Below, in pieces: positions 31,717-64,000 of a stretch of 64,000 nucleotides of DNA. Under the pieces are notes generated by a model, which saw only the letters and a list, made by a program, of their open reading frames with translations, did no database searches and was not told the DNA's origin. Location of the stretch: NCBI RefSeq assembly GCF_013376455.1, contig NZ_CP045504.1:1281501-1345500 (forward strand), read 5' to 3'. Made by a program: the position numbers and the translations under genes. The stretch is from Desulfolutivibrio sulfodismutans DSM 3696 (GTDB lineage Bacteria > Desulfobacterota > Desulfovibrionia > Desulfovibrionales > Desulfovibrionaceae). The first letter of the stretch is position 1. Every line of letters begins with the position of its first letter.

Positions 31717-31760
31717 TGTACCGCGCCACCTAGTTTTGTGTACAACGACGTTTAGTTTTG
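31717..31760. repeat. Prophage right end with transposase-site-like repeats
   Basis: The element appears to start TGTACCGCG at 31717, the expected TG terminal dinucleotide. Two direct copies of tagttttg lie at 31731 and 31753, 22 bp apart, the spacing of MuA R-sites. The second copy contains the mom stop codon. The 5-bp host duplication cannot be checked because the other end is outside the window. Confidence 0.6.
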
Positions 31761-36714: not shown

Positions 36715-37637
36715 ACCACCCCCTCGATTGACAGCTTATATTCGGCATCCCAGGCCACGGAGATTGTCAGACTGGAGTAGTATCCCAGGACAAAATAGGT
36801 CAGCAGTGATCCCTCCAGAGTGTCCTGGTCATCGGTCAGGTTGTCGACCATCCAGACGCACGCCCGGCCTCGCAGGGTGGTCAATATCCGCCGCACCTTG
36901 TCCACCGCGCCGGTCGGGAGAACCAAACTGAAATCCAACAGATCGGCATACAGCCCCTGGGCAATTCGTGTGCGCCCCTTCTCGTCCGTGGTCTTTTCGG
37001 AAAAGTCCAAAATCCCAGGGTTGACGGGCAGCAGCGTCTGGCCCAACACACGTTCCATGCCATAGCGCACATCGCCCAGGCGCGCGCCCCCCCCGGGCAG
37101 GTTGATCCGGATTCGCAGCGTCCCGGCCGCTGTAAACGGATATTGCCAGTAAACGCGGTCGCCAAGTTCCGGCTCGGTGAAACACACGTCGTACCAGTCC
37201 AGGCAGTCATCCACCATTAGGTCGATGGATCGTTCGGCCACCACCGCCCCGGCGGCGTCCAGCAATGTAAAATCCACACTCGTGCCGCGCACCCCGAACA
37301 GGGCCACGGAGGTGGTCAGCGCGCTCTCCAGATCCTTCTCAATATACCCCAGCCCCTCCAGATCCTCGGAAAACGTGTTGACGTATTCGTCATTCCAGCG
37401 GCCTCGGTTTGTTGCGCCCACAGCCACCCAATGCCCCGGGCTGTCGGGCGGGTAGTGACCCACATTGCCCGCCGTCAGGGATTGATAGATGCGGTCAGTC
37501 GCGGCCACCATGCATTGCTGATCCGCAATATACGTCCGGGCCGGGTCATATTCCTCGGGCTCGCTGGCGTGCCTGGCCGGAAGCGACGTGGCCTTGATGC
37601 GGGCCGGGGTGATTTCGCGGGGCACGATCACCTTCAT
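36711..37637 (-). CDS. Phage tail tip/hub protein
   Basis: 308 residues just after the tape measure, coupled by an ATGA overlap at 37634. Motifs include DPARTYIADQQCMVAATDRIYQSL and a beta-rich middle. Its position corresponds to the distal tail/hub proteins of siphophages, and similar proteins follow the tape measure in transposable siphophages. The exact family is not certain. No DUF2163-type or NlpC/P60 tip peptidase genes follow, so the tip is compact. Confidence 0.65.
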   Translation of the reverse strand: MKVIVPREITPARIKATSLPARHASEPEEYDPARTYIADQQCMVAATDRIYQSLTAGNVGHYPPDSPGHWVAVGATNRGRWNDEYVNTFSEDLEGLGYIEKDLESALTTSVALFGVRGTSVDFTLLDAAGAVVAERSIDLMVDDCLDWYDVCFTEPELGDRVYWQYPFTAAGTLRIRINLPGGGARLGDVRYGMERVLGQTLLPVNPGILDFSEKTTDEKGRTRIAQGLYADLLDFSLVLPTGAVDKVRRILTTLRGRACVWMVDNLTDDQDTLEGSLLTYFVLGYYSSLTISVAWDAEYKLSIEGVV

Positions 37638-40600: not shown

Positions 40601-43573
40601 GACGCCGCCGGGGGAGAGCCCGGACAGGCCCTGGGACAGGGCGCTGGCGTCGTCAAAAATCAGGCCCATGATATTGCGCTTGAGCCATTCGGCCATGATG
40701 TCTTCGAAAAGCGAAATGAACATGTCCCCCAGGCGGCCCACCACGGCGCCGACCGGCCCCAACATCTCCACCAGCTTGTTGACCCCTTGCCGGGCCATGT
40801 CGCCGAACCCCTGGGCGACGCCGCTGGACAGGTCGTCCGTCAGCCGCAGCATGCGCTGGGTGGTGTCGCGCCAGTCGTCCTGCGCCCGGCCGAAAGATGT
40901 CTTGTACGAGCCGGATTCCAGGGCGAACGCGGAGGACATGGCCTCGCCGAGGGACGTGGGGTTGTCGCGGGCGGCCTCCAGGCGACGCCGGTTGAAATCG
41001 TCCACTTCCTTGGCCGCATACATTTTATAGGCGACCTCATCGTCCGTCTTGGACTTGACCATTTTCAGGCGCTGTTCGAGCAGGGCCTTTTCAGCCTCCC
41101 AATACGCCGATGATCCGTCGCCCATTTTGGCGTAGGCGTCGCGCTGCGCCTCAAGGCGCTTCGCCTGATAGCCCCGTTCCAGTCCCTCCAGCAGGGAAAG
41201 ACGTCTGTTTTCGTCTTCAACGTTCTGGTTGATGAGCTGTTTGTTTCGCTCATACCAGGCCTCGGCCTCGGAGAGGCCCGCTTGATACGCGAGGTCTGGA
41301 TCACCCGTGGCGTCGGCAATTTCAGACATGAGGCCGGAAAGTTTTTGTAGTGATTCCACCATGGCCTGGGCCTGGACGGCTTGTTTTTCCAGTCCCCGGC
41401 CCCGGCCGATACGTTCCATGGCTTCAGCGGCCTGTTCCGCCGAAAGCTTTCCAGCAACAAGGCCAGACTCAACCCGTCTGGCGAAGTCGTTCCACTTTTT
41501 GTCAACCTGGGACAATTTGGTTTGCAGCGTATCGCCCGACAAGGCGGCCTCGGCTGATGCGATCTGGTCATCAAGTGAGGCAAGGAAATTCGTCGCCTCC
41601 TGGGCTGCCCGGGCGGCGGCCCCTCCGGAACGGGAAGCGGCCTTGGCGATATCGTCAAAAGCCTTGGCAACCCCGGCGTCGGCCAGATCCTTCATGGCCT
41701 GCGCCCGGCTCAACAACTCCGCATCCCCTTCCTTCTGGGCGAAGGCCATGGCCTTTTCAGCCTGAATCCGTTCCTCCTGCCACTTTTGGGTGGCGGCCTG
41801 ACGCTTCTGTTCGGCGGATAAGGCGGCGGCATTGCCGGATTCGATGCCTTTGAGGTTGGCAAGGTGCTTGGCGAGTTCCTGGTTCCGGCCCTTTTCGATC
41901 ACGACATCAAGGGCGGCCACCCGGTCGCGATCCGCACGGAACAGATCGACAGCGGATGTATTCGTTTGCGCCGGGGCGGGGTTATAGGCCGCCGTCAAAG
42001 CCGGGAAGGGGGTTGGCTTATACCGAGCGGTGAGGCCAACGATCTTTTTTTCGAATCCTTCGACCACGGCCCTGTTCTGTGCCGCCGACGCTTCCAGTCC
42101 GGCCACGGTGTCGGCGTCAATGAGTTTGCTTCCGATGCTCGTCTTGCCGATGGCGGCGATGGCGTCTTGCACGTCGGCCAGGGGGCCGAGCAGCCCGGCG
42201 ACGATGGCCGTCGAAACGCCCCAGAAGGCCACTTCGACGTAGCCGACAAGCTCATTGATGACCGTGACAGCGGCCTTCACCAAATCCAGGGCCAGCCCGG
42301 CCCGCCCCGTGGCCATCTCCATCTGCGCGAAAGACTGGACGGCGCTCCCCAGGGAACCCAGGATATCCAGGAACTGCGACCCGATGGATTTAAGGGTTTC
42401 ATACATCCCGGCCAGACGCTCTCTGTTCTCGCCGATCCACCTGTCCAACTCACGGATTTTTTCGACCAGGGCCTGTGCGCCGGACACCACCAGGCCGCCG
42501 ATGTCGTCGCCGACACCCCGGATGGCCGCCGCGATGTTCTGGATGTCCTGCCCGAGCCCGAGATTCTTGGTGTCGATGAGCAACCCGAGGATCTCCGACG
42601 TGGCCTTTTTCGCGTCCTCGAACAACCCTTCGGTGGCATGTCCGGCGAGCACGTCAAACGCCTCGGCCAAGTTCGAGGTCAGGCCTTCCCAGGTCTGTGC
42701 CGTGGCGTCGCCAGCGGTGCGAAATGCCTCCAGCTTTTCATTCAACTTTTCAACGTAGACCCCCTGGCGCTGCCATTCCAACACCAGTTCCTTGGTGATT
42801 CCCAAAAAACCGGCCAGCCGGTCCTGCCCCAGCTTGATATCCCCATCGAAAAGGGACCGCGCCTCCGCGCTCAATTGTTCCAACGGGATGCCCAGCGCCC
42901 CGAAGGCCTGGACAATGCCCACCAGCGTCTGCTTGGTCTGGTCGAGATTAAGACCCGCCTGACCGGCAGGCCCCAGAACCATCTGAAACCCTTCCACCAG
43001 ATCCTTGGTGGTCGCCGTCGTCTGCAACCCCATAATCTGGATGTCTTTCATCAGATCGCGGCTCACAGACTGCGCCGCATTCAGCTTGTCGACGCCCTGC
43101 AATCGCCGTCCCTCTGCGGTGATCAATTCATTGGTGGCGGACAGGATCGACGCGATGCCCAGCTTTGATGTTTCCATGGTCCGGTTGAAATCAAACCCCC
43201 TGGACACGACCGTCGACATCGCGTCCATAGCGGCCCGCAAAGAGAGGAAGGCCCCGACTGCCCCCATCACAGCCGGGCCGAGCCGGGTGACCGCGCCCCC
43301 AAGCGCAGAGATGTTGGTCATGGCGACCTTGGCCCCGCCAGCCCCGGATTGCGCTGCCGGGCCAAGGTCTTGCAGCTTCTTTCCCGTTTCGTTGACGGCG
43401 GCCGTGGTCTTTTTGGCCTCGGACGTTGTGGACCCCAGGGCCGTCTTGGCACCTGACGCGCCGGTCTGGGCCTTGGGGCCGAGGCCGTTGAGGCCTCGGC
43501 CCAGGGCTTCGACAGCGGTCTGGGCCTGCCGCCCATCCGCCTCGATAACGATCCTGACCCTGTTTTCCGCCAC
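37634..43573 (-). CDS. Tape measure protein
   Basis: 1979 residues, the longest gene in the window. It opens RIVIEADGRQAQTAVEALGRG, has long helical and coiled-coil stretches, a central glycine-rich hydrophobic region at about 1060-1150 (GAGAGAAAGAGMGSLVLPIVGTIIGAG) that may insert into membranes during DNA ejection, and a C-terminal GGITTRPTYALIGEGKGG typical of tape measures. The start is a GTG at 43573. By the usual rule of about 1.5 angstrom per residue, the tail would be near 300 nm (inference). It follows the G/GT chaperones, the standard siphophage order. Confidence 0.93.
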   Translation of the reverse strand: MAENRVRIVIEADGRQAQTAVEALGRGLNGLGPKAQTGASGAKTALGSTTSEAKKTTAAVNETGKKLQDLGPAAQSGAGGAKVAMTNISALGGAVTRLGPAVMGAVGAFLSLRAAMDAMSTVVSRGFDFNRTMETSKLGIASILSATNELITAEGRRLQGVDKLNAAQSVSRDLMKDIQIMGLQTTATTKDLVEGFQMVLGPAGQAGLNLDQTKQTLVGIVQAFGALGIPLEQLSAEARSLFDGDIKLGQDRLAGFLGITKELVLEWQRQGVYVEKLNEKLEAFRTAGDATAQTWEGLTSNLAEAFDVLAGHATEGLFEDAKKATSEILGLLIDTKNLGLGQDIQNIAAAIRGVGDDIGGLVVSGAQALVEKIRELDRWIGENRERLAGMYETLKSIGSQFLDILGSLGSAVQSFAQMEMATGRAGLALDLVKAAVTVINELVGYVEVAFWGVSTAIVAGLLGPLADVQDAIAAIGKTSIGSKLIDADTVAGLEASAAQNRAVVEGFEKKIVGLTARYKPTPFPALTAAYNPAPAQTNTSAVDLFRADRDRVAALDVVIEKGRNQELAKHLANLKGIESGNAAALSAEQKRQAATQKWQEERIQAEKAMAFAQKEGDAELLSRAQAMKDLADAGVAKAFDDIAKAASRSGGAAARAAQEATNFLASLDDQIASAEAALSGDTLQTKLSQVDKKWNDFARRVESGLVAGKLSAEQAAEAMERIGRGRGLEKQAVQAQAMVESLQKLSGLMSEIADATGDPDLAYQAGLSEAEAWYERNKQLINQNVEDENRRLSLLEGLERGYQAKRLEAQRDAYAKMGDGSSAYWEAEKALLEQRLKMVKSKTDDEVAYKMYAAKEVDDFNRRRLEAARDNPTSLGEAMSSAFALESGSYKTSFGRAQDDWRDTTQRMLRLTDDLSSGVAQGFGDMARQGVNKLVEMLGPVGAVVGRLGDMFISLFEDIMAEWLKRNIMGLIFDDASALSQGLSGLSPGGVSGGGGGIASLATGLVGDLLKGGVSTLFQGGASAVTTGVTTGGFGLGSSLLEGMMGAGVAGAPWAGAGAGAAAGAGMGSLVLPIVGTIIGAGLGLLGSLFGEEKKEQPPQEVWSGQAVMYSGGAMGGIGYTQMSDGSYKMTALDPMEMEAERQQFAETVKDINAAAKTLEIDFDRNWDRDFSFFFPPVAEELAGLVERLMYSTAAGQVLGELSPAAQLFAEGLEGLHDTLIRLGEAFGTVANQVKPLGIDFARMGGVTDATLLSLASLATGYNAGSAILRQAQEDQAESTEELTERFLAAGEAGAEVVRYLEQYRQQLQNLALASYSEQLVDVVGGEDNFNQVISTFAERAYEDRDRTEASVNYYRSEFRDKLSGASEHFPDFDVDSVMDNPGAFWSAYRAAMEQPMPPSAFEWWADLSGIVSNLQDFQDALADIDLAERAWDQDLLARRQTADGQDSAAEMTRRAIAQEQELADARKNGATYAQQAALAETQAYELERERDRLLGIEDEADSLGEYIEDLKDAVAYQTSAAQSLAASALAASSAFGAASKSLRDTLDDMLGLDADPAVTAARASREFADLYRRTMRGDTEAAGQLAGAASDLWESGRSTYDYDSLRASIIARLGSAAAYSERQDTYQGLEGGMASAQSGLLDRLYDETSGDVPDADFLAAATEMLSRMQAFTDLSGLAAEGRATSGDVRALAASTVDDLMRTTGLAELLGGTLDVQSLTADQAKLLLSAYDAMQVLGEATGQQYDASALTLRALDALASETLGQDQWASVVEAIEAGQAEYLEWLERNIEERRAEADRLYALQEQQLEAQEQMEAYFAGISDYLLKQTQIETLSATIADLRSQASTYQQMAIQAIAMGVPMAAMMHLQEVDRINAKIAALVSELEYWIGYEPQVPGLAEGGITTRPTYALIGEGKGGRQQEAVVPLDQFWAVLERLNASFERHLTNMTGLTREVARNTATSADEARRARYAERTVSPA

Positions 43574-46494: not shown

Positions 46495-46923
46495 CTAAAA
46501 CCCCCTCATGGAGTCGCCGGTAAACGTGCGTCCGGCCCCGTCCAGGAGCACGGTGCCGCCGCCGTCGGCCACGGGGGCGGCCACGCCCGCCGCCTGGAGC
46601 ACCACCACGCCCCGGGCCAAGTCCTTGAGCTGGGCGACGGCGGCCTTGTAGTCCTCGGCCACCTTCTCGGGCGCGGCGTCGCGGTAGAGCAGATACAGGG
46701 CGATGTCGCCCTGCCAGCGGACCACCATGTCCGGGGCGGCCGCAAACGGCACCTGATAGCCCCCGGCCCGGGCGTAGCCGTGGATGACGTTGGCCGCGTC
46801 GGCCAGGGCCAGGTCCAGCACGGCGTCCACGACCCCCCCCGTGGGAGGGTCATGGATGTCCGTGAGCTGAATGAGCCGGTCCTGGCCGTAGCGGTCGACC
46901 ATCCCCTGCCGCGTGGCGTACAT
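46495..46923 (-). CDS. Mu gp36-like (DUF1320) head-tail connector protein
   Basis: 142 residues. MYATRQGMVDRYGQDRLIQL with DPPTGGVVDAVLDLALADAANVIHGYARAGGYQVPF is the standard DUF1320 pattern. The end contains two strands around DGGGTVLLDGAGRTFT. It starts directly after the gp35-like stop. Confidence 0.92.
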   Translation of the reverse strand: MYATRQGMVDRYGQDRLIQLTDIHDPPTGGVVDAVLDLALADAANVIHGYARAGGYQVPFAAAPDMVVRWQGDIALYLLYRDAAPEKVAEDYKAAVAQLKDLARGVVVLQAAGVAAPVADGGGTVLLDGAGRTFTGDSMRGF

Positions 46924-48472: not shown

Positions 48473-49168
48473 CTATTTGCCCTCCTGCTGCATGTGCTTC
48501 TTGTAGGCGTCCTCGCCCAGGCCGAGCTGGGCGCACACCGCCCGATCCACGTCGGTCAGGCCGCCGGATGTGGGCGGCAGCCCGCCCACCGGCCCCGTGG
48601 CCCCCGGGGCCACCACGACAGGCGCGGCGTTCACCCAGGCCTCAAATCCCGACAGATCCTTGGAGGCGTAGGCCGTGGCCCATTCCTCCATGGCCGGGGC
48701 CAGCTTGCCCGTCTGCTTGGCATGGGCCACCACGGCCTCAACCCGCTCCCGGGTCCGATCCGTCTCCAGGACGGACAGGCGACCGGCCACGGCCTGGAAC
48801 TGCTCCATGGGCACGTACCGGGTGGGGTCCAAGACGCCTCCGGCCCCCTGGGCCGTAAGCGTCTTGGCATGGGCGGCAACGGCCTCGGGTTTGGCGTCCG
48901 CCGCCAGCCCGAAGTCCTTGACCAGCCCGGTGAACAGCCCCGACAGGGCCGTGCCCTGGGCCGTAAGCGTCTTGGCATGGGCGACAACGGCCTCGGGTTT
49001 GGCGTCCGCCGCCAGCCCCAGATCCTTGGCCAGACCGGCGAAAAGCCCCGCCATGGCCGCCTGTCTCTCCGCCAGAGCCTTGGCGTGGGCGGCCACGCCG
49101 TCGGCCGTGGGCATGCCGGACAGGCCGAACAGGCCCGCCAGCATTGCCAGAAATTGGTTCAAATCCAT
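48473..49168 (-). CDS. Internal scaffold protein start within the protease gene
   Basis: In-frame ATG preceded by GGAGGCGAGG begins MDLNQFLAMLAGLFGLSG and runs to the shared stop, giving 231 residues that are mostly helical. In Mu the scaffold Z is made this way from within gene I. The start was chosen for its ribosome site; expression is not shown. Confidence 0.6.
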   Translation of the reverse strand: MDLNQFLAMLAGLFGLSGMPTADGVAAHAKALAERQAAMAGLFAGLAKDLGLAADAKPEAVVAHAKTLTAQGTALSGLFTGLVKDFGLAADAKPEAVAAHAKTLTAQGAGGVLDPTRYVPMEQFQAVAGRLSVLETDRTRERVEAVVAHAKQTGKLAPAMEEWATAYASKDLSGFEAWVNAAPVVVAPGATGPVGGLPPTSGGLTDVDRAVCAQLGLGEDAYKKHMQQEGK

Positions 49169-49660
49169 GTCCTCGCCTCCGTCGTTGTCGAGCTGCGACG
49201 CCAGCGCCGTCAGCTCCAGGTTGGGGATGTTGGTCAGAGCCGCGCATTCGATGCGCGTCACCGTGCCGTCGTGCTTGAGATAGCGGTAGACCGGGGAGAG
49301 ATAGCGGTATTCCCGGGCCGCCAGCCGCGCGGCCGCCGCCTCGGTCCATTCCACGCGGCCCCAGATGCCGTCCTCGCGGACGTCCAGGTCCGTGATCCAC
49401 CCGGCGGCCGGGGCGGGCCTGCCGTTTTTTTCCGAATAGAGAAGCTGGTGGTCGTAATCGATGGGCAGGGGAACGCCCCGCTGATGGGCCGTGGTGGCCG
49501 CGATTACGCCCTGCGGATCGTCCAGGCGGTACGGCCCCCGGCCGTCCCGGCAGGCGATGTCCCCCAGGGGCAGCAGATGCACCCATTCCGGAACGGGACG
49601 GGACGTTCCCAGGTCCAGGGCGTGAGCGGCACGGGCGGTTCGGGCGGTTCGCGTTTTCAT
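48473..49660 (-). CDS. Phage protease with C-terminal scaffold (Mu gpI/Z-like)
   Basis: 395 residues. The N-terminal part, WVHLLPLGDIACRDGRGPYRL, LPIDYDHQLLYSEKNGRPA, PAAGWITDLDVREDGIWGRVEW, EYRYLSPVYRY and RIECAALTNIPNLEL, is the Mu I protease. A second start at 49168 (MDLNQFLAMLAG, with GGAGG before it) would give a 231-residue scaffold in the same frame, as in Mu Z. The scaffold region holds a 36-residue tandem repeat (108 bp at 48851 and 48959). The start at 49660 is preferred over 49684; a hairpin lies just upstream. Confidence 0.9.
   Translation of the reverse strand: MKTRTARTARAAHALDLGTSRPVPEWVHLLPLGDIACRDGRGPYRLDDPQGVIAATTAHQRGVPLPIDYDHQLLYSEKNGRPAPAAGWITDLDVREDGIWGRVEWTEAAAARLAAREYRYLSPVYRYLKHDGTVTRIECAALTNIPNLELTALASQLDNDGGEDMDLNQFLAMLAGLFGLSGMPTADGVAAHAKALAERQAAMAGLFAGLAKDLGLAADAKPEAVVAHAKTLTAQGTALSGLFTGLVKDFGLAADAKPEAVAAHAKTLTAQGAGGVLDPTRYVPMEQFQAVAGRLSVLETDRTRERVEAVVAHAKQTGKLAPAMEEWATAYASKDLSGFEAWVNAAPVVVAPGATGPVGGLPPTSGGLTDVDRAVCAQLGLGEDAYKKHMQQEGK
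48851..49066. repeat. 108-bp tandem repeat in the scaffold region
   Basis: ggccgtaagcgtcttggcat recurs at 48851 and 48959, exactly 108 bp apart, and a weaker third unit follows toward 49090. It encodes 36-residue helical units with the pattern AVVAHAKTLTAQG and GLAADAKPE. Repeat number could tune scaffold length. Confidence 0.88.
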
Positions 49661-49684
49661 GACGCCCGTCCTAGCGCACGACAA

Positions 49685-50041: not shown

Positions 50042-51355
50042 TTAAAAGATTCGCTCAAACATCCCCGTGTTTTCCATGTCCTTGGGATCAATCACCCGCC
50101 CCGACCACAGATCGTTCGTGACGACCGTCTGTTTCGTCAGTTCCTCGCCCGGGGCCGCCACCCGCATCCGCACGGCGTGGTTGACCCGCACCACCAGCTT
50201 GCCCGCGCCGTCACCGGCATCGATCAGGTACAGCAGGGCCGGGTTGGCCTTGTCCCAATAGACCGCCTCCGGCTCCCACAGGGCGTCCACCACCCGGGCG
50301 ATGGTCTCCCGGGACAGCCCCACGCCGCTGGCCTGCTTGCCCTCGCGGTACAGGTGGGCGATGCCCTTATCCGACAAGGTGATGGCCCCGCACTCCGGCG
50401 GCGCCTTTTTTTCGCGCATGAAGTCGATGACCTTCTGATCCAGCGCCCCCACCACCCGCCGTTCTCCGGCCGAGATCGGCGCGCCGGTCTCCATGGCCGT
50501 CAGCTTACCCTGCACCCATTCGGACAGGTCATGCTTGAGCGCAGGCACCACGAACCGGGCCGAGGCCGCCTGGGCCGCCGCCAGATCGGCCGAGGCCTGC
50601 GGCAGCTTGTCCAGCATGGCCCGGGCCGCGTGGTTTTCCAGGGCGGCCTGCCCGGGGTTGTAGGCAAAGCCGGGGTCGATGCCCTTGGGCACATAGATTT
50701 CCTGACCCGTGCGGGGGTTGACGTACTTTTCCATCTCGATGACCAGATCGGGGCTGATTTCGTATCCAAGCTCTCTGAGCTGCGCTTCGGAAAGCTGGAT
50801 GACGACACACCGGCAATGCCAGCCGTTTGGGGGGAAGTGCATTTTCCACCAGGGATGGTCCCCTCGTAATACGATGCCGTGCCATGCGCGGTGCTCGGGC
50901 CGCGTCTTGCCGTCCAGGATGGCCACGTACCGCAGATAGGGAGCTATATGTTTGGTGCGCTCGTAGCGCGCCCAGGTTCCGGCCGCGTGGGCCGTGCGCA
51001 TGTTGGTGTCGTAGATGATCTGCAAACGCCGGGGAGAACCGAGCTGCGCCCGCACCACCTGCCCGGTGTCCGGGTGCGTCATGTCTTTTTTGCCCCACCA
51101 GCCCTTGGCCTGGAGGATCGGCGTCAGCTCGGCGGCGAACTGTTTGAGGGTGCGGCCTTCGGACTTGGCCCGCAGCACGGCCTGTTCGATGTCCTTGAGC
51201 ACATCGAACCCGGCGCTTTTCGCCACGGTAAACGCCCGGGTGTGTTCGCCCTGCCACATCTCGCGCCAGTCGAACGTCGGGGTGAGCACGTGGCCCCGGG
51301 CCTCCAGGTAGGCCACGGATTCGGCGGGCGCGACGGCCTTGAATTCAATCGCCAA
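50042..51355 (-). CDS. Mu gp30-like head morphogenesis protein (MuF domain)
   Basis: 437 residues from a TTG at 51355 that overlaps the restored portal stop by 11 nt. The MuF domain is QIIYDTNMRTAHAAGTWARYE and YLRYVAILDGKTRPEHRAWHG with NGWHCRCVVIQLSEAQL, including the conserved Cys/His. A long C-terminal part from about 290 (LSEWVQGKLTAMETGAPISA, ALWEPEAVYWDKANPALLYLIDAG) resembles a barnase/EndoU-type or PBECR extension seen in some MuF proteins (inference). The protein guides DNA packaging and head assembly and may be injected. Confidence 0.88.
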   Translation of the reverse strand: MAIEFKAVAPAESVAYLEARGHVLTPTFDWREMWQGEHTRAFTVAKSAGFDVLKDIEQAVLRAKSEGRTLKQFAAELTPILQAKGWWGKKDMTHPDTGQVVRAQLGSPRRLQIIYDTNMRTAHAAGTWARYERTKHIAPYLRYVAILDGKTRPEHRAWHGIVLRGDHPWWKMHFPPNGWHCRCVVIQLSEAQLRELGYEISPDLVIEMEKYVNPRTGQEIYVPKGIDPGFAYNPGQAALENHAARAMLDKLPQASADLAAAQAASARFVVPALKHDLSEWVQGKLTAMETGAPISAGERRVVGALDQKVIDFMREKKAPPECGAITLSDKGIAHLYREGKQASGVGLSRETIARVVDALWEPEAVYWDKANPALLYLIDAGDGAGKLVVRVNHAVRMRVAAPGEELTKQTVVTNDLWSGRVIDPKDMENTGMFERIF

Positions 51356-52936
51356 GGCCCGCCCCCGTCTCGCCCGCCAGGCGGGCCGCAAAGGTTAGCT
51401 TTGCCAGGTGTTCGGTCAACGCGGCCACGTCCTGCCCGGCCACGGCCTCGGGCAGCCGCCGCAAAAACTCGTCCAGGTCCGCACATTCGGCCAACAGCCG
51501 CCGCACAGGCTCAATCAGCGGGTCCACCAGCGGTTGCCATTCGGCCAACTCCTCGGCCACGGCCACGTCCACCGCGTCCCGGGGCTGCGGCTCGGCCGCC
51601 CCGGCCAAGCCCCGGCCAACTCCCGGGTGTGCGCCGCCCTGGGCGATCCGGTGGCCACTGGCGCGCCCATCGCGCCAGTCGCGGCCGTTTCGGCCGTTTC
51701 CCCGGGGGCGCGCAGGCACACCGCGTCCGGAGGCGGATCGGGCAACCCCAGCTTGTCCCGGATGATCGACGCCTCGACCTGGAGCCCAAGCGGCACCAGC
51801 TTCACCAGCCGGTCGGCCAGCTTGTCCATGTCCTCTTCGTCCGGCCGGAATACCTTAATGCGCGGATAGAGGCGGCGCGGCCCCAGGTTGAGGTCGACCA
51901 CCGGCCGGGCGACGTCTCGGGTAAGCGCGATGGACAATTGCCGGGCGTCGGCGGCCTCGATGTCGCCGCGCACCCGCTCATGGGCGTCCGCCGTGCCCAC
52001 GTGCTGGCCCACGTCCGTGGTGCCGGTCTGGCCCAGAACGGCCTTGCTGGTCTGACGGTCCAAGAATTCGGAGAGTTCCCGAAAAAGGGTTACGTTGCCC
52101 GAGAGCTTGGCCTCGATGAACTCGATGCCCATGGACTCCGGGATGATAGCCGCCGCGTCCGTGGAAATGTTCCTGACGGCGCGCAAAAGCGTGGCCTTTT
52201 CGCTCTCCGTCGCGCCCGGGCCGTAGCGGCCGACGCGTAGCGGAACCCCGAAGATCTCCGCGAACTGCACCCACGACTTGATGTCGAAGTTTTTGAACAG
52301 GTAGCCCCAGGCCACGGGCCGGGCCAGGCCGCCGCGAATGGGCAGGCCCGATTTGCTCTTATGGATATGGGCCACGTACTTGTAGGGGGAAAGCGGCACG
52401 AGCTGCCCGCCCTCGCTGCGCAAAAGCGGCGTGCGGCCGTCCTCGCGGGCAAAGGCGAACCAGCGCGGATCGCGCCATTCCAGGCGCTGCGGCGTCCACT
52501 GCCTGCCTTCCACGTCCCAGATGATTTCCGTGAGCGAAAACCCCTTGCCCACGGCGTCCAGCACGTCGAAAAGCTCGTCCCGCAATTCGTCCCGGGTCAG
52601 CACGTCGCGCACCAGGTCGGCGGCCCGCTGGTCTTCGGCCGCGTCCGTGGCCGCCTCCACCGTGATCTCCAGGCCCGACACCTGCAATTTGCGCGTGCCC
52701 AATACGCTCCGGTAGTGGCAGTCCTTTTCCTCCATCTCTTCGGCCAGCTCCAGATAGGCCGTGGGGTCGCCGTCTTCGGCGTCGCGCAAAAGCCGCGCCA
52801 GCCGAACCGGCGTCAGGCCCTGAGCCGGATGGCCGGACATGACCTGGCGCACGCCGGTCAGCGTCGGCCCGGCCTCCTCCTCGCGCAGGCGGCCCAGGTC
52901 CACCGGCCGCCCCAGATGGTCAAATAGCGTCGGCAT
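51345..52936 (-). pseudogene. DUF935 portal protein (Mu gp29-like), frameshifted by an 11-bp duplication
   Basis: The portal forms the head vertex for DNA entry. The main frame covers MPTLFDHLGRPVDLGRLREE to ATGSPRAAHTRELAG, with typical segments RKLQVSGLEITVEA, YKYVAHIHKSKSGLPIRGGLARP and VGRYGPGATESEKATLLRAV. After 51619 the frame is wrong and ends at 51515 with nonsense (473 residues). The correct C-terminus, VAEELAEWQPLVDPLIEPVRRL, continues in another frame to 51345. An exact 11-bp duplication (51598-51608, 51609-51619) explains this; removing one copy gives 526 residues. Start by the TAATG overlap with TerL. Confidence 0.9.
51598..51619. repeat. 11-bp tandem duplication in the portal gene
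   Basis: gccccggccaa occurs twice in direct succession at 51598 and 51609. It shifts the portal reading frame. With a single copy the frame continues as ELAGAAEPQPRDAVDV into the conserved C-terminus. Confidence 0.97.
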
Positions 52937-54531
52937 TACCACGCCCCCTGTTGCGGCCAGCGGCCGCTGTCGTCGTCGATGTCGGAGTGGCCATTCCGGC
53001 TAGGGACAGAGCCGGACGGCTCGGCCGGGGTGTAGCCATATTCGGTGCGCTTCTGACAGGTGGCGAAATATGCCAGCACGCCAGCAACGGCCGAATCCCC
53101 GTGCCGGTATTGGCCGTCAGATCCCTTGACCCGGGCACCGGATATCCCCGGCCGCCCCTGGACCATCACCACCATACGGTGGTCTGCAATCACGTCCTCG
53201 TTGGCATCCAGACGCAACAGATCCCCTTCCATGGCCTGCTTGTACTTCGGGAACCACTCGGCATACCAAGGGGCCGAAAACATGACGCACTCCACCCGGC
53301 CCTGTCCGTATTTCTGCAATGCTGCCTCGGCATGGCTCTGACCGTTCCCGCGCGCGTCAAAGGCCGCCTTTTGAAAAAGCGGGATGTTGTCCAGGATGTA
53401 AAACGTGATGAGCTGCTGCACGTCGAAAGGGATATTGCGCAACTCCACGCCGAACGACTGTCGCCAACGTCCAGGCCGTTCCTCGTGCCAGACCCAGTTT
53501 ACCGACAAGTCTCCAGAACGCCCGAAATCCTGACTGTAAACCGTGCGCCTACCCGTAGGCATGGCGTCGATGAGCGGCTTCAGGTGGTCCTGTATCCATG
53601 TGGAAGCGATTTCCAAGCGGTCAGGTTCAATCACAAATTCGGCGGGTTGCTGCCAACGCAAACGAGGAATTCCCTCGCCATGGCAGTGCTCCAAAAGGAG
53701 TCGGGTAAAAAACGCCCCCGACCCGCGTTTCGCGATGCAATCCAGTTCCTCGTTCGCGTCCTCTGGCGTGGGATAATCCGCGTAGATCTCTTCCCGGTAT
53801 TTCTCTTCCGCCGTAAGGCTGTATTCCTTGTCCGTGACGAGGCACACCCGCTGATAAAAGCCCTGGGCCAAGGCGTCGTCGAAAGTGACCTTATGGAGCG
53901 AGTAGGGGAGCTTTCCCGCCTCCACGTCCTTGCAAAGCACCGTGAAGGGGTTGTCCTCTCCGTTCAAGGTGGAAACGATGTCTATACGCCCGCCCCACAT
54001 GCGGAAGGCCAAGGCCCCCTTGATGACCTCCTGAAGGTTTTCGTGGAATGCTGCCTCGTCGATGCGGGCATGTCCCTGGCGGGACCGCCAGTTATAGGGG
54101 CAGGATGACAACGCCTCGATCTTGAATCCGCTGGCAAGCTGGATCTTGTATGTGACGATGTCGCGCTTCTCGTCTTTCAGCAGGGTGACGCCGATCTGAC
54201 TGGCCGCCAGTTGGTAGGCTCGGGCGAAGAAGGCGCAGTCACCGATAAACTCGGCGGCCATGGCCATGTTGTAGCCCATATAAAACTGGTCCATCCCCTT
54301 GGCCAAGGCGGCCTCCAGGGCCGCTTCGGCAGCCAGCGAACCCCACGAAAAACCGATACGCCGGGACTTTTTGCAGAGCCGCACCGGCGATTCATCGCGA
54401 TGCCACGCGGCTTGATACGGCAGCAGGATCTTCGGGACTTCGGTCGGGGTCAGCCGCCGTGTCGCTCGCATGCGTTGGATGTCCTCAACGAGTTGGAGGG
54501 CTTCCTCGCGTTCGGACGTGGTCATGCTCAT
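52936..54531 (-). CDS. Terminase large subunit (Mu gp28-like)
   Basis: 531 residues. The ATPase part shows LLPYQAAWHRDESPVRLCKKSRRIGFSWG (Walker A-like region), HARIDEAAFHENLQ (Walker B) and IVSTLNGEDNPF. The nuclease part starts around VYSQDFGRSGDLSVNWVW with the metal-binding Asp and has AFDARGNGQSHAEAALQKYG. It cuts and packages DNA; Mu-type phages package by headful from within host DNA. Coupled to gp27 by ATGA and to the portal by TAATG. Confidence 0.94.
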   Translation of the reverse strand: MSMTTSEREEALQLVEDIQRMRATRRLTPTEVPKILLPYQAAWHRDESPVRLCKKSRRIGFSWGSLAAEAALEAALAKGMDQFYMGYNMAMAAEFIGDCAFFARAYQLAASQIGVTLLKDEKRDIVTYKIQLASGFKIEALSSCPYNWRSRQGHARIDEAAFHENLQEVIKGALAFRMWGGRIDIVSTLNGEDNPFTVLCKDVEAGKLPYSLHKVTFDDALAQGFYQRVCLVTDKEYSLTAEEKYREEIYADYPTPEDANEELDCIAKRGSGAFFTRLLLEHCHGEGIPRLRWQQPAEFVIEPDRLEIASTWIQDHLKPLIDAMPTGRRTVYSQDFGRSGDLSVNWVWHEERPGRWRQSFGVELRNIPFDVQQLITFYILDNIPLFQKAAFDARGNGQSHAEAALQKYGQGRVECVMFSAPWYAEWFPKYKQAMEGDLLRLDANEDVIADHRMVVMVQGRPGISGARVKGSDGQYRHGDSAVAGVLAYFATCQKRTEYGYTPAEPSGSVPSRNGHSDIDDDSGRWPQQGAW

Positions 54532-58322: not shown

Positions 58323-58942
58323 TGCGCCAGCCCCCGCGCCGCGCGGGACGCGGCCGCCGGGCCAGACGTCGGGCCGGACGCCGGAAGCAGGCCCAGGGTG
58401 CGGGCCTGGCGCACCAGCCTCCAGACCACATCCCTGGACACGTCCAGGAGCTTACCGATCTCGATGCAATTGAGGCCCTTTTGGTGGTAGCGCACGGCCT
58501 GGTTGATGCGGTGCAGCCGCTCCGGCGGCACGGCCAGGGCCGCCCGCGCCCCGTCGGCCAGGGCCTCGCTGCGGGCGTTTTCCAGGGCCGCGCGTTCGAG
58601 GGTGTTGAAGGCCTCGATGTAGCGGAGCTTCCATTCCATGGCCCGGGTGGAGTTCCAGCCCATCACCAGGAGGGTGAAGGCGTCGCGGGTGAGGAGGTAG
58701 GCGCGATCCTTCCTCATCCCGCCGGACGCGGGAACAACGACCTCGGCCTCTGTGGGCTCAAAGTTGAGCCGACAAAATGATTCCGGTAGCTTACGGGTCA
58801 AATCGTCGATGTCCCGCAGCACGTTCTTGTGCTTGAGCCCGAAATGCTGGGCCAGCTCCACGGATCGGACGGCCGGGCGTTCGCCGGGCAGGAATTCGAC
58901 GGTCACCGGAACGGAAGGGGTTTGGGAAAGGGAAAGGGACAT
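58319..58942 (-). CDS. Rha family phage regulatory protein
   Basis: 207 residues. The Rha domain (about 20-120) is plain: SVELAQHFGLKHKNVLRDID, AYLLTRDAFTLLVMGWNSTRAMEWKLRYIEAFNTLE. A C-terminal helix-turn-helix (INQAVRYHQKGLNCIEIGKLL, then VVWRLVRQARTLG) follows. Rha proteins interfere with phage growth in IHF-lacking hosts in some lambdoid phages. Its place in the late region rather than the early control region is unusual. GCGAGG precedes the ATG; the terminator of the moron lies about 30 nt upstream. Confidence 0.87.
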   Translation of the reverse strand: MSLSLSQTPSVPVTVEFLPGERPAVRSVELAQHFGLKHKNVLRDIDDLTRKLPESFCRLNFEPTEAEVVVPASGGMRKDRAYLLTRDAFTLLVMGWNSTRAMEWKLRYIEAFNTLERAALENARSEALADGARAALAVPPERLHRINQAVRYHQKGLNCIEIGKLLDVSRDVVWRLVRQARTLGLLPASGPTSGPAAASRAARGLAQ

Positions 58943-58973
58943 GATGCGCCTCGCTTAGTTGGGGGTTGGAAAC

Positions 58974-59043
58974 AAAAAAAGGCGACTGACGCTCCCCCGC
59001 TAAGCGCGGCCGGGGCCTCGCGGACACCCGGACGTCAGCCGCC
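58974..59043 (-). terminator. Rho-independent terminator after the secreted moron gene
   Basis: Eleven-base arms ggcgactgacg and cgtcagccgcc (one wobble pair) enclose about 41 nt, with a run of seven T on the minus strand. It isolates the gene at 59200-59790 from rha. Confidence 0.75.
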
Positions 59044-59199
59044 AATACGAGCCTCTCCTAAAAACAGAGATGCTAGGCGACAAAAACACGTCGTCCACTC
59101 TTCAACCATGCCTACGGCTTGGTCGTGGCGGTGGACAGCCACGCTTAGTTAGGGACTTCCCGGTTAGGATTTCCGGCCGGGGTTGTCAAGCAGCGCAGC

Positions 59200-59790
59200 C
59201 TAGAGCTTGCCCTTTTCTTCGTCTTTCTTTTGCTTTATCGCCAAATCTCGGAGTTCGCTCGATTCATAGTCAATACGCACATTTACATTGAAATTTTCAC
59301 CATCTATAAAACAAAATACTGTAGTTTTTGCCGTATCCCATGCCGAAAACAAAGCAAGATGCCCCATTGATACCGCCAACCCATGGTTTTGCTTGTCTTC
59401 GGCATAAGTATTGTTTTTCCATAGAACTTTTGATTGTTTTGGTTTCCCATATTTAGATATTAATGCTTCCACAAATTCTTCATAATCGGAAATGTAATCA
59501 TTCTTATTTGTGTGTATATCAACAAGAAAATACCTCACCTTCCATAGCTTGTTGTCAACAAAAGCATACGCCACTTGGATGTTTTTATCGAAAATTTTGT
59601 CGTTGAAGACAATCAAGTTGTCACTCTCCATGACTGGCGCGCTTCGTTCCGCCTTCTTGACCTCTTCCCTGCTCATCCCCCATTTCACACTGCGGAGATC
59701 GTACGCGTCCTCAGCGGCCGACAGGGAAGGGGCCGCGAAACATAACGCCAGCAAACACACCCCGGCCAACATCCAAGCCCTTGTCCGCAT
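59200..59790 (-). CDS. Low-GC secreted protein, probable moron
   Basis: 196 residues with a signal peptide (ACLLALC-like AGVCLLALCFAAPSLSAAED). The mature part starts DLRSVKWGMSREEVKKAE, a pattern seen in small exported proteins with a repeated SxxxxxxGxxxxxV motif, and continues with DKIFDKNIQVAYAFVDNKLW and AEDKQNHGLAVSMG. Base composition is far more A/T-rich than every neighbour. Own promoter (candidate), perfect AAGGAGG and a terminator indicate an independent unit inside the late region, as for lysogenic-conversion genes. Function unknown. Confidence 0.8.
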   Translation of the reverse strand: MRTRAWMLAGVCLLALCFAAPSLSAAEDAYDLRSVKWGMSREEVKKAERSAPVMESDNLIVFNDKIFDKNIQVAYAFVDNKLWKVRYFLVDIHTNKNDYISDYEEFVEALISKYGKPKQSKVLWKNNTYAEDKQNHGLAVSMGHLALFSAWDTAKTTVFCFIDGENFNVNVRIDYESSELRDLAIKQKKDEEKGKL

Positions 59791-59812
59791 CACACGCCTC
59801 CTTGTTTCCGAA

Positions 59813-59841
59813 TGGATATCAACCCTCCCGCATCCAGTAAA
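59813..59841 (-). promoter_or_regulatory. Candidate promoter of the secreted moron gene
   Basis: On the minus strand TTTACT, 17 bp, TATCCA lies 23 nt before the start codon. The match is moderate. With the terminator it forms a self-contained unit. Confidence 0.35.
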
Positions 59842-59874
59842 CGCCTATTGCCGCGTTTCGGCCCCATGCCGGTC

Positions 59875-59903
59875 TTGTCAACCCCCTGGCGGGTTGCTAT
59901 GCC
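59875..59903 (+). promoter_or_regulatory. Candidate promoter of the plus-strand membrane gene
   Basis: TTGTCA, 17 bp, TATGCC, with the -10 next to the left arm of the hairpin at 59882-59936. Moderate match. Confidence 0.4.
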
Positions 59904-59936
59904 TCCCCGCATATCAGCCAACGCAACCCCAGGGGG
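59882..59936 (+). promoter_or_regulatory. Hairpin covering the ribosome-binding site of the membrane gene
   Basis: Left arm CCCCCTGGCGGGTTGC (59882-59897) pairs with GCAACCCCAGGGGG (59923-59936) with a two-base bulge. The right arm contains the Shine-Dalgarno AGGGGG, five nt before the ATG. The start would be closed unless the hairpin opens. Confidence 0.65.
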
Positions 59937-59941
59937 CCGCC

Positions 59942-60487
59942 ATGACCGAAACCGCCTTTGACGCGCCCGGCTACGTCTCCCGGATGGGCCTGCTCATCGA
60001 CAAGGCCTATCTGGAATACCGGCATCTCGCCACGGACACCCACAAGCTGCAAGCCCTCTACCTCCGCACCTACCTGTGGATCGCCAGCCTTCTGGCCACC
60101 TTCGAGATCGGGGCCGTCATCCGGTTCAAGGCCGGGGAGCTGGCCGTGGCCTCCGGCCTGGCCGCGCCCTTTCTCGTTCTCGTGGGCCTGTCCCTGCTCC
60201 TCGCCCTGGCCACGTTCGCCTTCTGCATCGACGCCCTGCGCGGCCGCAGGAATCTGGAAATGCCCCTGGGCGACTTCAAGTTCCTCTCGGACAAAGCCTT
60301 CCGGGAGGCGCAGGGGGATGCGGACGCCCTGTTCTACCAGACGGTTCTGGTGTCCCTCGGGGCCGGGATCAGTCATCAAGCAGCAGCAGTCCACCAAAGA
60401 GGAAGAAAATTACGAGCCATGTCATGGATGCTCCTTTGCGCCTCGGCTTTGGCCGTCCTCGCGGCGGGCGTCACCCTCGCCGCGTAA
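59942..60487 (+). CDS. Plus-strand multi-pass membrane protein, possible SLATT-like/exclusion protein
   Basis: 181 residues. An N-terminal helix (LIDKAYLEYRHLATDTHKLQALYLRTYL) leads into two closely spaced membrane helices (WIASLLATFEIGAVIRF; APFLVLVGLSLLLALATFAF), a soluble segment, and a third hydrophobic end (SWMLLCASALAVLAAGVTLA). This helix-2TM-helix plan recalls SLATT-type 2TM effectors of antiphage systems, but no motif proves it. It lies opposite to the phage operon between Mor and the late genes, with its own candidate promoter. Superinfection exclusion or defence is an inference. Confidence 0.6.
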   Translation: MTETAFDAPGYVSRMGLLIDKAYLEYRHLATDTHKLQALYLRTYLWIASLLATFEIGAVIRFKAGELAVASGLAAPFLVLVGLSLLLALATFAFCIDALRGRRNLEMPLGDFKFLSDKAFREAQGDADALFYQTVLVSLGAGISHQAAAVHQRGRKLRAMSWMLLCASALAVLAAGVTLAA

Positions 60488-60513
60488 ACCCGGCGGCACG
60501 GGAGGTGGTCGCC

Positions 60514-60666
60514 GTGTCGGATTCGGACAAGGAAAAGAAACCGCCGCAGGAACCGCCGGAAGCGAGGCCCGCCCCGTCCATCTCCATCGCCGTCCACTCG
60601 CAGGGCAGCGGCAAGGAAAAGGAAGGACGGGCCACCGGCAACCGCATCATCAGGGACAAGGAGTAG
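60514..60666 (+). CDS. Small charged plus-strand protein
   Basis: 50 residues from a GTG with GGGAGG eight nt upstream. It is Pro/Lys/Glu-rich (SDKEKKPPQEPPEARPAPSI) and disordered-looking, with a middle SISIAVHSQGSGK stretch. It directly follows the membrane protein gene and is probably coexpressed. Function unknown. Confidence 0.5.
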   Translation: MSDSDKEKKPPQEPPEARPAPSISIAVHSQGSGKEKEGRATGNRIIRDKE

Positions 60667-60730
60667 CCCTTCCGGGCGGCGGGGCGACCTCCCGCCGTCC
60701 GGACCCGTCCCCCTCGATCCGCAGCCACCA

Positions 60731-61036
60731 TCACTGCCATGTCTCCGTTCCCGGCGCGGGAATGTCGCCAGCCCCGGGCGCGGGCGCGGGCGCGGCCGCC
60801 TTCGCGATCCGCTCCAGGGTTCCCAGGATGCCCTCCAGGGTCTGGTTGGCCATCATGGTCTCGCCGATGCCCAGGAGCACCCCCGCATCGGTCAAGGTCG
60901 AGACGCCGGGGAGCCTGACAGCGACAAGCATCGCCACAGCCGCCAATCGGGCGGACAGGTGCGTCAAAAGCTCCACCTGCCGCCGTTTTTGACGTTTCAA
61001 CTCGTCCCGTACGCCAACCGACATGCCCTTTTTCAC
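60731..61036 (-). CDS. Small phage protein of unknown function
   Basis: 101 residues from a GTG with AGGAGG, overlapping the upstream stop as GTGA. A basic start (RDELKRQKRRQVELLTHLS) is followed by a hydrophobic stretch (ARLAAVAMLVAVRLPGV) and a Pro/Ala-rich end. It could be a small membrane protein. No family is recognised. Confidence 0.6.
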   Translation of the reverse strand: MKKGMSVGVRDELKRQKRRQVELLTHLSARLAAVAMLVAVRLPGVSTLTDAGVLLGIGETMMANQTLEGILGTLERIAKAAAPAPAPGAGDIPAPGTETWQ

Positions 61037-61479
61037 GCTTCCTCCTCGATTCGTTCACAATCCGACAACAGCACCGGCTCCCGGCGGCCCACCACAAACA
61101 CCCGCCAGCGGCCGTCAATCCCCAGAAACGCCGGAGTCTTGGCGATCACCCGGTCAAAAACCGGGCGGCCTTCCTCGAAAAATTGCCCGTTCGGCACGGA
61201 CAGCCGCGTCCCAGCCGCGATGCCATGCCCGGCGACAGGCCGGGGAAGCCCCGCCCCGTCGTGGACCGCCCCGGCCAGCACGACGGCCAGGCCCTCCAGG
61301 GTCACGAACGCATATTTCCCGCCGCCAGCCGCCAGCCAGCGGCCGTTCACGCGCAGCCGCACCGTGCCCGGTTCCGGCCGTTCCCCGGGCCACTGCGCCG
61401 CGTCGAACAGCTCTATCAGCGTCGTCTTGCCGGAAATCTTGAGCAAAACAGACCCCATTTTCGTGCGTGTTTCCGCCAT
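61033..61479 (-). CDS. Phage protein of unknown function after Mor
   Basis: 148 residues. KMGSVLLKISGKTTLIELFD and RLRVNGRWLAAGGGKYAFVTLEGL suggest a beta-rich fold. No family is recognised. It starts 15 nt after the Mor stop, so it would be made with the middle transcript. Confidence 0.65.
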   Translation of the reverse strand: MAETRTKMGSVLLKISGKTTLIELFDAAQWPGERPEPGTVRLRVNGRWLAAGGGKYAFVTLEGLAVVLAGAVHDGAGLPRPVAGHGIAAGTRLSVPNGQFFEEGRPVFDRVIAKTPAFLGIDGRWRVFVVGRREPVLLSDCERIEEEA

Positions 61480-61494
61480 GATTCTCCGGCATCC

Positions 61495-61890
61495 TTACAG
61501 CAAACTGTGTTGATCCGGCCGCCCGTCGCCACCGGCCCGGTGCCGCCGTACGGTGCGCCCTGCCACCCCGGCCAGCCGGGCGATCTCGTTTTCGCTTTTC
61601 CCGGCCTTGATGCCTTCACGGATGGCCCGCCACACCCTGGACCGGTTCCCGGCCAGCGGCCCCAGCGGGATCGTCATGTTCTCGCCCTGGGCCATCCAGG
61701 CGATTCTTTCCGCCGCCGCCCGGCCCACGGCCGTCACCAGCCAATGGTCCTGCGTGAGCGTCTCGGGGCGCGGGATGTAGACCGTCGTGCCGCCCCTGGC
61801 TTCGGCCAGGCGGTACGCCGCCACAGGCCCCACCAGGTCGGCGATGGCCGCCAACGTCGGCGGCAGCTCCATATCAAACGCCCCGAACAT
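61495..61890 (-). CDS. mor: Mor-type transcription activator
   Basis: 131 residues. The dimerisation part (LPPTLAAIADLVGPVAAYRL, GGTTVYIPRPE) and the C-terminal helix-turn-helix (GKSENEIARLAGVAGRTVRRH) match the Mor/C family that opens middle and late phage promoters without a good -35 box. Mu has two such proteins (Mor and C); only this one is in the window. GGGGAG precedes the ATG, two nt after gemA. Confidence 0.9.
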   Translation of the reverse strand: MFGAFDMELPPTLAAIADLVGPVAAYRLAEARGGTTVYIPRPETLTQDHWLVTAVGRAAAERIAWMAQGENMTIPLGPLAGNRSRVWRAIREGIKAGKSENEIARLAGVAGRTVRRHRAGGDGRPDQHSLL

Positions 61891-61892
61891 GT

Positions 61893-62390
61893 TTACTCCC
61901 CGTCCCCGGTAAACGCGGCGTCCTGCGCCCCGTGGCTTTCCCGCAGGGCCGCCTGATCCTTGCGCCGCAAGTTCTTGCCCAGGGCCGCGATCACGGCCTG
62001 GAGCTGCTTGGTGGTGGCCCATTCCAGCTTTTCCGGGCCGCCCTGGCGCGTGAGGATGGCCAGGGCGTAGTCCCAGGGCACGAACCGGCCCTGGGCGTTG
62101 GCTGTTTCGGCAAGTAAGGCCTCGATTTTGCCCATGAGATCCGAGCGGTCATAGTCGCGCTGCGCGGGCGCGGCCCGGTCGCCGCGACGCCGGGCCGGGG
62201 CGGTGAAGCCTCGCCGCGACAGGAACCGCAGCAGATCGTCAAGCTGTTTCAGATCGAGCTTGCCCGCCGAATCCGCGCCGTAACGGCCGTCGAGCATGGC
62301 CCGGTAGTCTGGGTCATCCATGCCGAGTTGCTTCTTGGCGATGTGAATTTTGGCCAGCATGCCCTGGCGGCGGGAGGTCGAGCGGTTCAT
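61893..62390 (-). CDS. gemA: GemA-like regulatory protein (Mu gp16)
   Basis: 165 residues. RQGMLAKIHIAKKQLGMDDPDYRAMLDGRYG with SAGKLDLKQLDDLLRFLSRRG is the DUF1018/GemA signature, and the C-terminal half ATTKQLQAVIAALGKNL is also typical. In Mu, GemA alters host gene expression and DNA supercoiling. GGAGG precedes the start; ATGA overlap with the gene before it. Confidence 0.92.
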   Translation of the reverse strand: MNRSTSRRQGMLAKIHIAKKQLGMDDPDYRAMLDGRYGADSAGKLDLKQLDDLLRFLSRRGFTAPARRRGDRAAPAQRDYDRSDLMGKIEALLAETANAQGRFVPWDYALAILTRQGGPEKLEWATTKQLQAVIAALGKNLRRKDQAALRESHGAQDAAFTGDGE

Positions 62391-62596
62391 GGGAGCCTCC
62401 GTAGCGCCACGTCCTCGCACCCCGGCAAGAGCGGCCGTTCCGCAACGATGTCGCCCGGGAAAAGGCACACCTCGCGGTCTGCCAATGCGCCGTCAGCACA
62501 TATCTTGCGGCCAACGCCGCCGCCTCGCGAATACGTGACCATCATCACGATGCGGCCTTTGTGGCGCTTGGACATGACGTAGGGTTGGCAGGGCAT
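62387..62596 (-). CDS. Small early phage protein of unknown function
   Basis: 69 residues. MPCQPYVMSKRHKGRIVMMV then GVGRKICADGALADREVCLF. Two cysteine-containing stretches could bind metal. Not recognised. Confidence 0.55.
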   Translation of the reverse strand: MPCQPYVMSKRHKGRIVMMVTYSRGGGVGRKICADGALADREVCLFPGDIVAERPLLPGCEDVALRRLP

Positions 62597-62597
62597 G

Positions 62598-62792
62598 TCA
62601 TTCTCCCTGTTTTGCGGCCCGGGCCGCGATCTCGTTGAGGCGTTCGGCGCAAATGGCCGCGATGCGCTCGGCCGCGTCCGGCTTGTCCGGATCGGCCAGG
62701 AAAAATCCCACCAGCCGCCCGCGCGCCGTGTCGCGGATGGCGGCCCGGCCGGGGATGGCGCTGGTATCGACGGCGAAGCGGGGCGTGGTCAT
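62598..62792 (-). CDS. Small early phage protein of unknown function
   Basis: 64 residues, ATGA-coupled to the preceding gene. MTTPRFAVDTSAIPGRAAIR and AAERIAAICAERLNEIAARA are mostly helical. Not recognised. Confidence 0.6.
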   Translation of the reverse strand: MTTPRFAVDTSAIPGRAAIRDTARGRLVGFFLADPDKPDAAERIAAICAERLNEIAARAAKQGE

Positions 62793-63199
62793 ATCGCCAC
62801 CCTGTAGACCAGCAGTTCCGCCTCCAGCTCCGCCACCAACGCCCGCAGCTCCCGGTTTTCGCTTTCCAGGGCCGCGCATCTGTCGTCATCCGACACGGCA
62901 GGGACGGGGATCGAGACCGGGCCGCTTCTCAGCTCAAGGCTCCACGGCTGGGTTCCGGTCTCGCCCCCTGCCGCTGCCGGAGGTTGGGCCTCCATGGGCA
63001 TGGCGGCCGCTTCGCCCTCGCGTGGTCCGAAAGCCTTCTCAACCAGCTCAAACGGATAAAAGAATCTCCGTTGTCGCCCGCCCCACAGCCCATAGCGGCG
63101 GCCGCTTTTTCCGAGCGGATACTTGCTATCCGCCTTGCGGACGGTGCCGGACTCGCTGATTTCGTAAGCCGGGTATCCCGGGATGGTGCGCCATTCCAT
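62789..63199 (-). CDS. NUMOD4-like DNA-binding-motif protein
   Basis: 136 residues. The first 25, WRTIPGYPAYEISESGTVRK, are the NUMOD4 motif normally found in HNH homing endonucleases, but no HNH motif follows. The rest contains a linker and a C-terminal coiled coil (CAALESENRELRALVAELEAEL). It may be a DNA-binding remnant recruited as a phage regulator. It starts directly at the previous stop. Confidence 0.7.
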   Translation of the reverse strand: MEWRTIPGYPAYEISESGTVRKADSKYPLGKSGRRYGLWGGRQRRFFYPFELVEKAFGPREGEAAAMPMEAQPPAAAGGETGTQPWSLELRSGPVSIPVPAVSDDDRCAALESENRELRALVAELEAELLVYRVAI

Positions 63200-63451
63200 C
63201 TACTGCTCCCGGCGCAGGCTTTGTTCGACGAGCCGCGAGAATTCCAGCACAGCGTCCAGCTTCTCATCCTCATTCTCCGCAAAACCAAAGCCGGGAATGA
63301 GCAGCGTTTTGTTGTCCCACGCCAAGGTGGCCATACCTTCCAGGCACTCGTGGAGCTTGTGCGAATCTCCGGAAGCAATGGGCAAGGCCCCCTGCGGGCA
63401 TTCCTGGTCAACATGGATCACACCGTTGGTGAAGCAATATGCGACGGCCAT
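63200..63451 (-). CDS. Small early phage protein of unknown function
   Basis: 83 residues. MAVAYCFTNGVIHVDQECPQ and KLHECLEGMATLAWDNKTLLIPG. GCAGGAG precedes the ATG. It resembles small Mu-like early proteins in size and place only. Confidence 0.62.
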   Translation of the reverse strand: MAVAYCFTNGVIHVDQECPQGALPIASGDSHKLHECLEGMATLAWDNKTLLIPGFGFAENEDEKLDAVLEFSRLVEQSLRREQ

Positions 63452-63525
63452 GCGTCTCTCCTGCGGCTGCTCATCAGGCCGGAACCGCCACGCCCCGGCG
63501 ACCGCCCCGCAGGGCGGTTTCGCAT

Positions 63526-63723
63526 CTATTCCATCCCGGCCATGATCTTCCGGCAGCTCTGCATGAGCGCGGCCACGGGCACGTCGGCAGCCGCCGCGTC
63601 CTTGATGGCCAGAGACAGCGCCTCGGCCCGCTTCTTCCAGGCCAGGGCCTGAGCTTCGGCCGACATCAGCACCCGCAGAGGCACCTGCCGTTCCGTCACC
63701 TCGACCGTGCATGCGTCGCTCAT
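63526..63723 (-). CDS. Small early phage protein of unknown function
   Basis: 65 residues, ATGA-coupled to gam. VEVTERQVPLRVLMSAEAQA then a helix ending in VPVAALMQSCRKIMAG. Not recognised. Confidence 0.62.
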   Translation of the reverse strand: MSDACTVEVTERQVPLRVLMSAEAQALAWKKRAEALSLAIKDAAAADVPVAALMQSCRKIMAGME

Positions 63724-64000
63724 GCCGCAGCCTCCTTGATCTCTTCGGCCTTCAGCTCGTAGTAGAAGAGGTCTTTTTTCGCGCGCCTTGCCCCCACGAG
63801 TTCCAGGCGCTCGTCGGGCCACTTCACCATTTCGTCCCGGTTCAGCTCTTCTTTGACGCGGACGGCACCGGCAAACGGATCGTCGGGCTCTCCGGTAATC
63901 AACGTCTTGACCCGCTCCAGGATGCCCGCGAGAGTCCCCTTGCCCTTGGCCTTTATCTCCGTGGAGCGCCGGAAGCCGATGGTCCCGAAATTGAGCTGTC
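63720..64000 (-). CDS. gam: Host-nuclease inhibitor protein Gam (C-terminal part)
   Basis: The window holds the last 93 residues. LNFGTIGFRRSTEIKAKGKG then VRVKEELNRDEMVKWPDERL fits the end of Mu Gam, which binds DNA ends and blocks exonucleases. The N-terminal part lies past the window edge. As in Mu, it sits in the early operon ahead of gemA and mor. Confidence 0.82.
   Translation of the reverse strand, partial: QLNFGTIGFRRSTEIKAKGKGTLAGILERVKTLITGEPDDPFAGAVRVKEELNRDEMVKWPDERLELVGARRAKKDLFYYELKAEEIKEAAA

Follow-up and report, generated by a model that had tools for sequence, protein, structure and literature searches.

A frame break in a Mu-type portal gene of Desulfolutivibrio sulfodismutans is probably a one-base consensus error within a repeated prophage

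The portal locus

The window, i.e. the whole stretch of DNA analysed here (64,000 nucleotides of Desulfolutivibrio sulfodismutans DSM 3696, NZ_CP045504.1, positions 1,281,501 to 1,345,500), carries a Mu-like prophage whose portal region lies on the minus strand. The gene of a Mu-type portal (Portal_Mu/phrog_113; 51345–52936) has the gene of the terminase large subunit (phrog_2; 52936–54531) upstream and a MuF-like minor head gene (PF04233, phrog_220; 50042–51391) downstream. The portal frame starts at 52936 and ends at 51515, and the C-terminal piece of the protein is encoded in a different frame (51345–51719) that overlaps the upstream one. The N-terminal piece matches PF06074 Portal_Mu with 348.6 bits (curated cut-off 23.9), a match that stops short of the frame shift, its last residue being 395 in the queried piece. 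For the C-terminal piece, a Pfam profile search gives no match, but two PHROG profiles do match: the portal profile phrog_113, over part of its length (E 1.7e-10), and phrog_10231. The preliminary description of this DNA, made from the sequence without database searches, had called this piece a typical DUF935 C-terminus; its portal character is borne out by the phrog profiles, the Pfam part of the statement is not.

The sequence GCCCCGGCCAA occurs twice head to tail within the portal gene (51598–51608 and 51609–51619, minus strand), the two copies being 100% identical. Both this exact 11-bp tandem and the end of the broken frame at 51515 had been correctly recognized in the preliminary description, which regarded the tandem as a duplication that broke the gene. 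It had also noted that dropping one copy gives 527 codons, which holds as arithmetic (1592 bp for the portal span minus 11, stop included). However, exact adjacent repeats of 9–12 bp are not rare in the window (one each of 10 and 11 bp, and several each of 9 and 12 bp), so that the tandem alone is weak evidence for a duplication. A longer tandem repeat of 108 bp (48846–49059; 2.0 copies, 90% matches), whose length is a multiple of three, lies within the head maturation protease gene (48473–49684).

An intact twin of the portal gene

When the whole genome (4,440,187 bases in two contigs) is searched with the DNA of the portal gene, a second copy is found on contig C1, at 3421640–3423232. This twin is 1593 bp long, one base more than the window copy, and is open over 530 residues and a stop (531 codons with the stop included). 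Its protein matches phrog_113 with 480.6 bits over residues 2–523 and PDB chain 8rka_A over residues 3–523. By these profile and structure matches and by the order terminase, portal, MuF, the twin resembles Mu-type portals (PF06074 Portal_Mu, PHROG 113, solved portals 8rka and 9khx) and shows nothing unusual, whereas the frame of the window copy leaves that of the twin at residue 443 of 530.

Over the 4.6 kb that were aligned around the two portal genes, the sequences differ at a single place: the twin has an additional C, located in the latter half of the apparent tandem. The plus strand reads C4 in the window (51610–51613; G4 on the coding strand) and C5 in the twin, which carries an imperfect near-repeat of 11 + 12 bp at the place of the exact tandem (51598–51619). 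The closest relative found, represented by two loci (L014 and L015) that are identical across 7596 bp, encodes a portal of 532 residues with 93% amino acid identity. A base-level alignment, made for these loci only, shows that the relative has the length of the twin at the junction and no exact 11-bp repeat, its two additional residues resulting from 6 bp elsewhere in the linker. As the twin has C5 where the window has C4 and the relative has the length of the twin, it is the window copy that is one base short, and the run of four C is the difference that actually breaks the frame. The exactness of the 11-bp tandem is a consequence of this loss: with the C run shortened in its longer half, the near-repeat becomes a perfect one.

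Two pairs of nearly identical prophages

The two Mu-like prophages align across positions 31717 to 59852 of the window at 98.6%, with unevenly spread differences. The part of the prophage from 31717 to 58441 is repeated on C1 from about 3402014 and is identical save three indels in C runs and one divergent block (41977–42971); divergence resumes at 58442. Outside the block and the diverged end, about 25.7 kb hold no substitution and three indels, all of which are one-base contractions of a C run, and each contraction breaks a different gene, of which the other prophage copy has an intact version. Two of them, at 37087 and 46833, are short in the twin, which reads C7 where the window has C8. 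The first lies within the gene of a 308-aa phage protein (phrog_6278; 36711–37637, minus strand) and the second within a Mu gp36-like head-tail adaptor gene (PF07030, phrog_195; 46495–46923, minus strand); both genes are intact in the window and shifted in the twin. The third, from C5 to C4, is short in the window and is that of the portal gene.

The block 41977–42971 is the one difference in the shared region that looks real. It consists of clustered substitutions and of small indels that sum to zero, and lies inside an ORF of 1979 aa that has an equal open length in both copies and that, from its size and place, we take to be tape-measure-like. A gene of the Mom family (31752–32609; PF25680, 268 bits) lies at the margin of the shared stretch; Mom modifies DNA.

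Another long pair of prophage repeats, which includes a Mu-type portal, is found in the same genome in inverse orientation (C1:840583–882110 and 4225363–4183739). From 846 kb on, its two copies differ over about 36 kb by no substitution and 162 indels, among which 160 concern one base and 2 concern two bases. The one-base indels are located in runs of 2 or more in 141 cases out of 160, and outside of such runs in the 19 others. The 162 indels as a whole are unequally shared between the copies (127 are short in one copy, 35 in the other) and strongly clustered, since 147 of the 162 fall at 855–866 kb. The called genes in C1:846000–882110 and in the inverse copy from 4183739 are likely to be fragmented. 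The coverage by ORFs was tried as a proxy for errors and proved of no help, being nearly equal at 846–855 kb, where there are almost no indels (0.58), and in the indel-rich stretch at 855–866 kb (0.55).

Both pairs show the same overall layout, with a long stretch in which the copies agree except for one-base indels and one block, and with one diverged end: 58442–64000 of the window next to the shared 31717–58441, and 840.6–845.5 kb next to 846–882 kb in the second pair. Such a layout could stem from an exchange or homogenization of modules between related prophages, or from an assembly in which one consensus was copied.

Single-copy DNA as a control

Five single-copy stretches (four of the eight G001 stretches and locus L053; the two G002 stretches were left unused) were compared with a genome of the same genus. 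Coding-like ORFs were chosen by G+C per codon position, and a match was obtained for 52 of 58 of them, with 57.6 kb aligned. None of these 52 ORFs carries a frameshift, in what is a small sample of a 4.4-Mb genome and one from which frameshifts close to gene ends would escape. The two candidate frame splits encountered in this set correspond to gene junctions, as established by inspection at the base level. Looser sets that retain all ORFs of at least 100 aa contain 355 and 56 ORFs, with 9 and 6 candidate splits, respectively. They amount to 11 distinct candidates, one of which is one of the two gene junctions; the 10 others, judged without base-by-base inspection, are not coding-like and are each overlapped, to a differing extent, by a coding-like ORF. 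As a further test on repeats, 16S copies were sought with RF00177, which gave no match in this genome and matched in 9 of 14 control genomes.

Origin of the missing base

These data suggest, with a probability that we put at roughly 0.88, that the base missing from the portal gene of the window is an error in the length of a homopolymer in the consensus, and that the gene of the organism is most likely intact. In the first pair, once the divergent block and the diverged end are set aside, all three differences between the copies are one-base run indels unaccompanied by substitutions, and the small single-copy sample is free of frameshifts. In the second pair, 162 indels without one substitution are unexpected from mutation and expected from a consensus of low quality, which favours an artefact. 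With only 3 indels in the window pair against 162 in the second, the two cases need not share one cause. An assembly error had been among the options raised in the preliminary description, and this is the one that gains support.

The proposed course of events can be viewed as follows. As the chromosome carries two prophages that are all but identical over about 26 kb, reads from this region would lack a unique assignment; one-base contractions of C runs would then be left uncorrected, in different genes depending on the copy. According to the Polypolish paper (Wick and Holt, PMC8812927), homopolymer indels make up most of the errors that remain in long-read bacterial assemblies, and an error in one copy of a repeat persists because short reads map to the error-free copy. 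The mechanism described there predicts private one-base errors in each repeat copy together with clean single-copy DNA, as observed here. The likeness to the cases of that paper comprises the one-base homopolymer indels, the frameshifts in coding sequences, the long repeats and the copy-specific nature of the errors; the present case differs in that the error is deduced from the assembly alone. The same source states that before short-read polishing, the quality of a long-read assembly is generally not much different between repeats and the rest. The proposed account thus requires that the single-copy DNA was polished and the repeats were not, a way of producing this genome that we infer.

The second best explanation is that slippage within the C run has truly removed one base and cut the portal of the window short, with the twin prophage still encoding an intact one. 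The shorter run is, after all, what the assembled sequence contains, and it lies in a homopolymer, where slippage occurs; C7 and C8 tracts slip in living cells too, and the genes of prophages decay. Yet the absence of any substitution beside three contractions in about 25.7 kb, and beside 162 indels in the second pair, fits a consensus error far better, and we therefore consider a real deletion unlikely. The window lysogen may be defective, although an intact portal gene is present elsewhere in the genome: if the loss of the base is true, the twin could still supply the portal and the prophages might complement each other. It is still less probable that all three run-length differences are real and that the co-resident prophages do complement each other, the portal coming from one of them and both the gp36-like adaptor and the 308-aa protein from its partner, with particles formed only when a cell carries both.

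With a consensus error as the preferred reading, a doubtful call of a defective prophage is removed. Frame breaks located within the long repeats of this assembly are not to be taken as biology, and counts of pseudogenes or predictions of activity for its prophages need an examination of the reads first.

Duplication, frameshifting and the homologous loci

The preliminary description had proposed that a real 11-bp tandem duplication broke the portal gene and that it could be reverted by slippage. The two 11-mers are indeed exact and adjacent, and the removal of 11 bp also yields an open length. However, neither the twin nor the relative with 93% identity is shorter by 11 bp: the former is longer by 1 bp and the latter has the length of the twin at this site. 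Both keep the full stretch, so that the ancestral form is not one that lacks 11 bp, and both the duplication and its reversion by slippage were discarded. The searches point in the same direction, as the exact two-copy 22-mer is found in 0 contigs of IMG/VR (a collection that may lack the records closest to this genome) and is restricted, among 74 loci, to the 4 covering the place of the window itself. A real duplication thus appears extremely improbable. With 24,984 bp of the prophage as query, 50,697 phage records yielded no near match, and a protein search gave 309 records, all with less than 60% identity; hence, these searches offer no isolated close phage as an arbiter.

Homologous loci were found in 27 cases (5 + 22), and 20 of them were examined for open frames, the seven omitted (L013, L026 and L031–L035) being partial or more distant matches. 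The 20 loci include at least one duplicate pair and probably two, as L014 and L015 are identical over the length given above and L009 and L025, whose contigs are equally long, probably represent one contig; the row of L009 in the protein alignment came from a wrong overlapping frame and was not used. A programmed frameshift that would yield two forms of the portal, as the overlap of the upstream and downstream frames might suggest, receives no support from the relatives and has hardly any likelihood, since a single stop-free frame spans the match in the twin and in 20 of the 20 loci examined.
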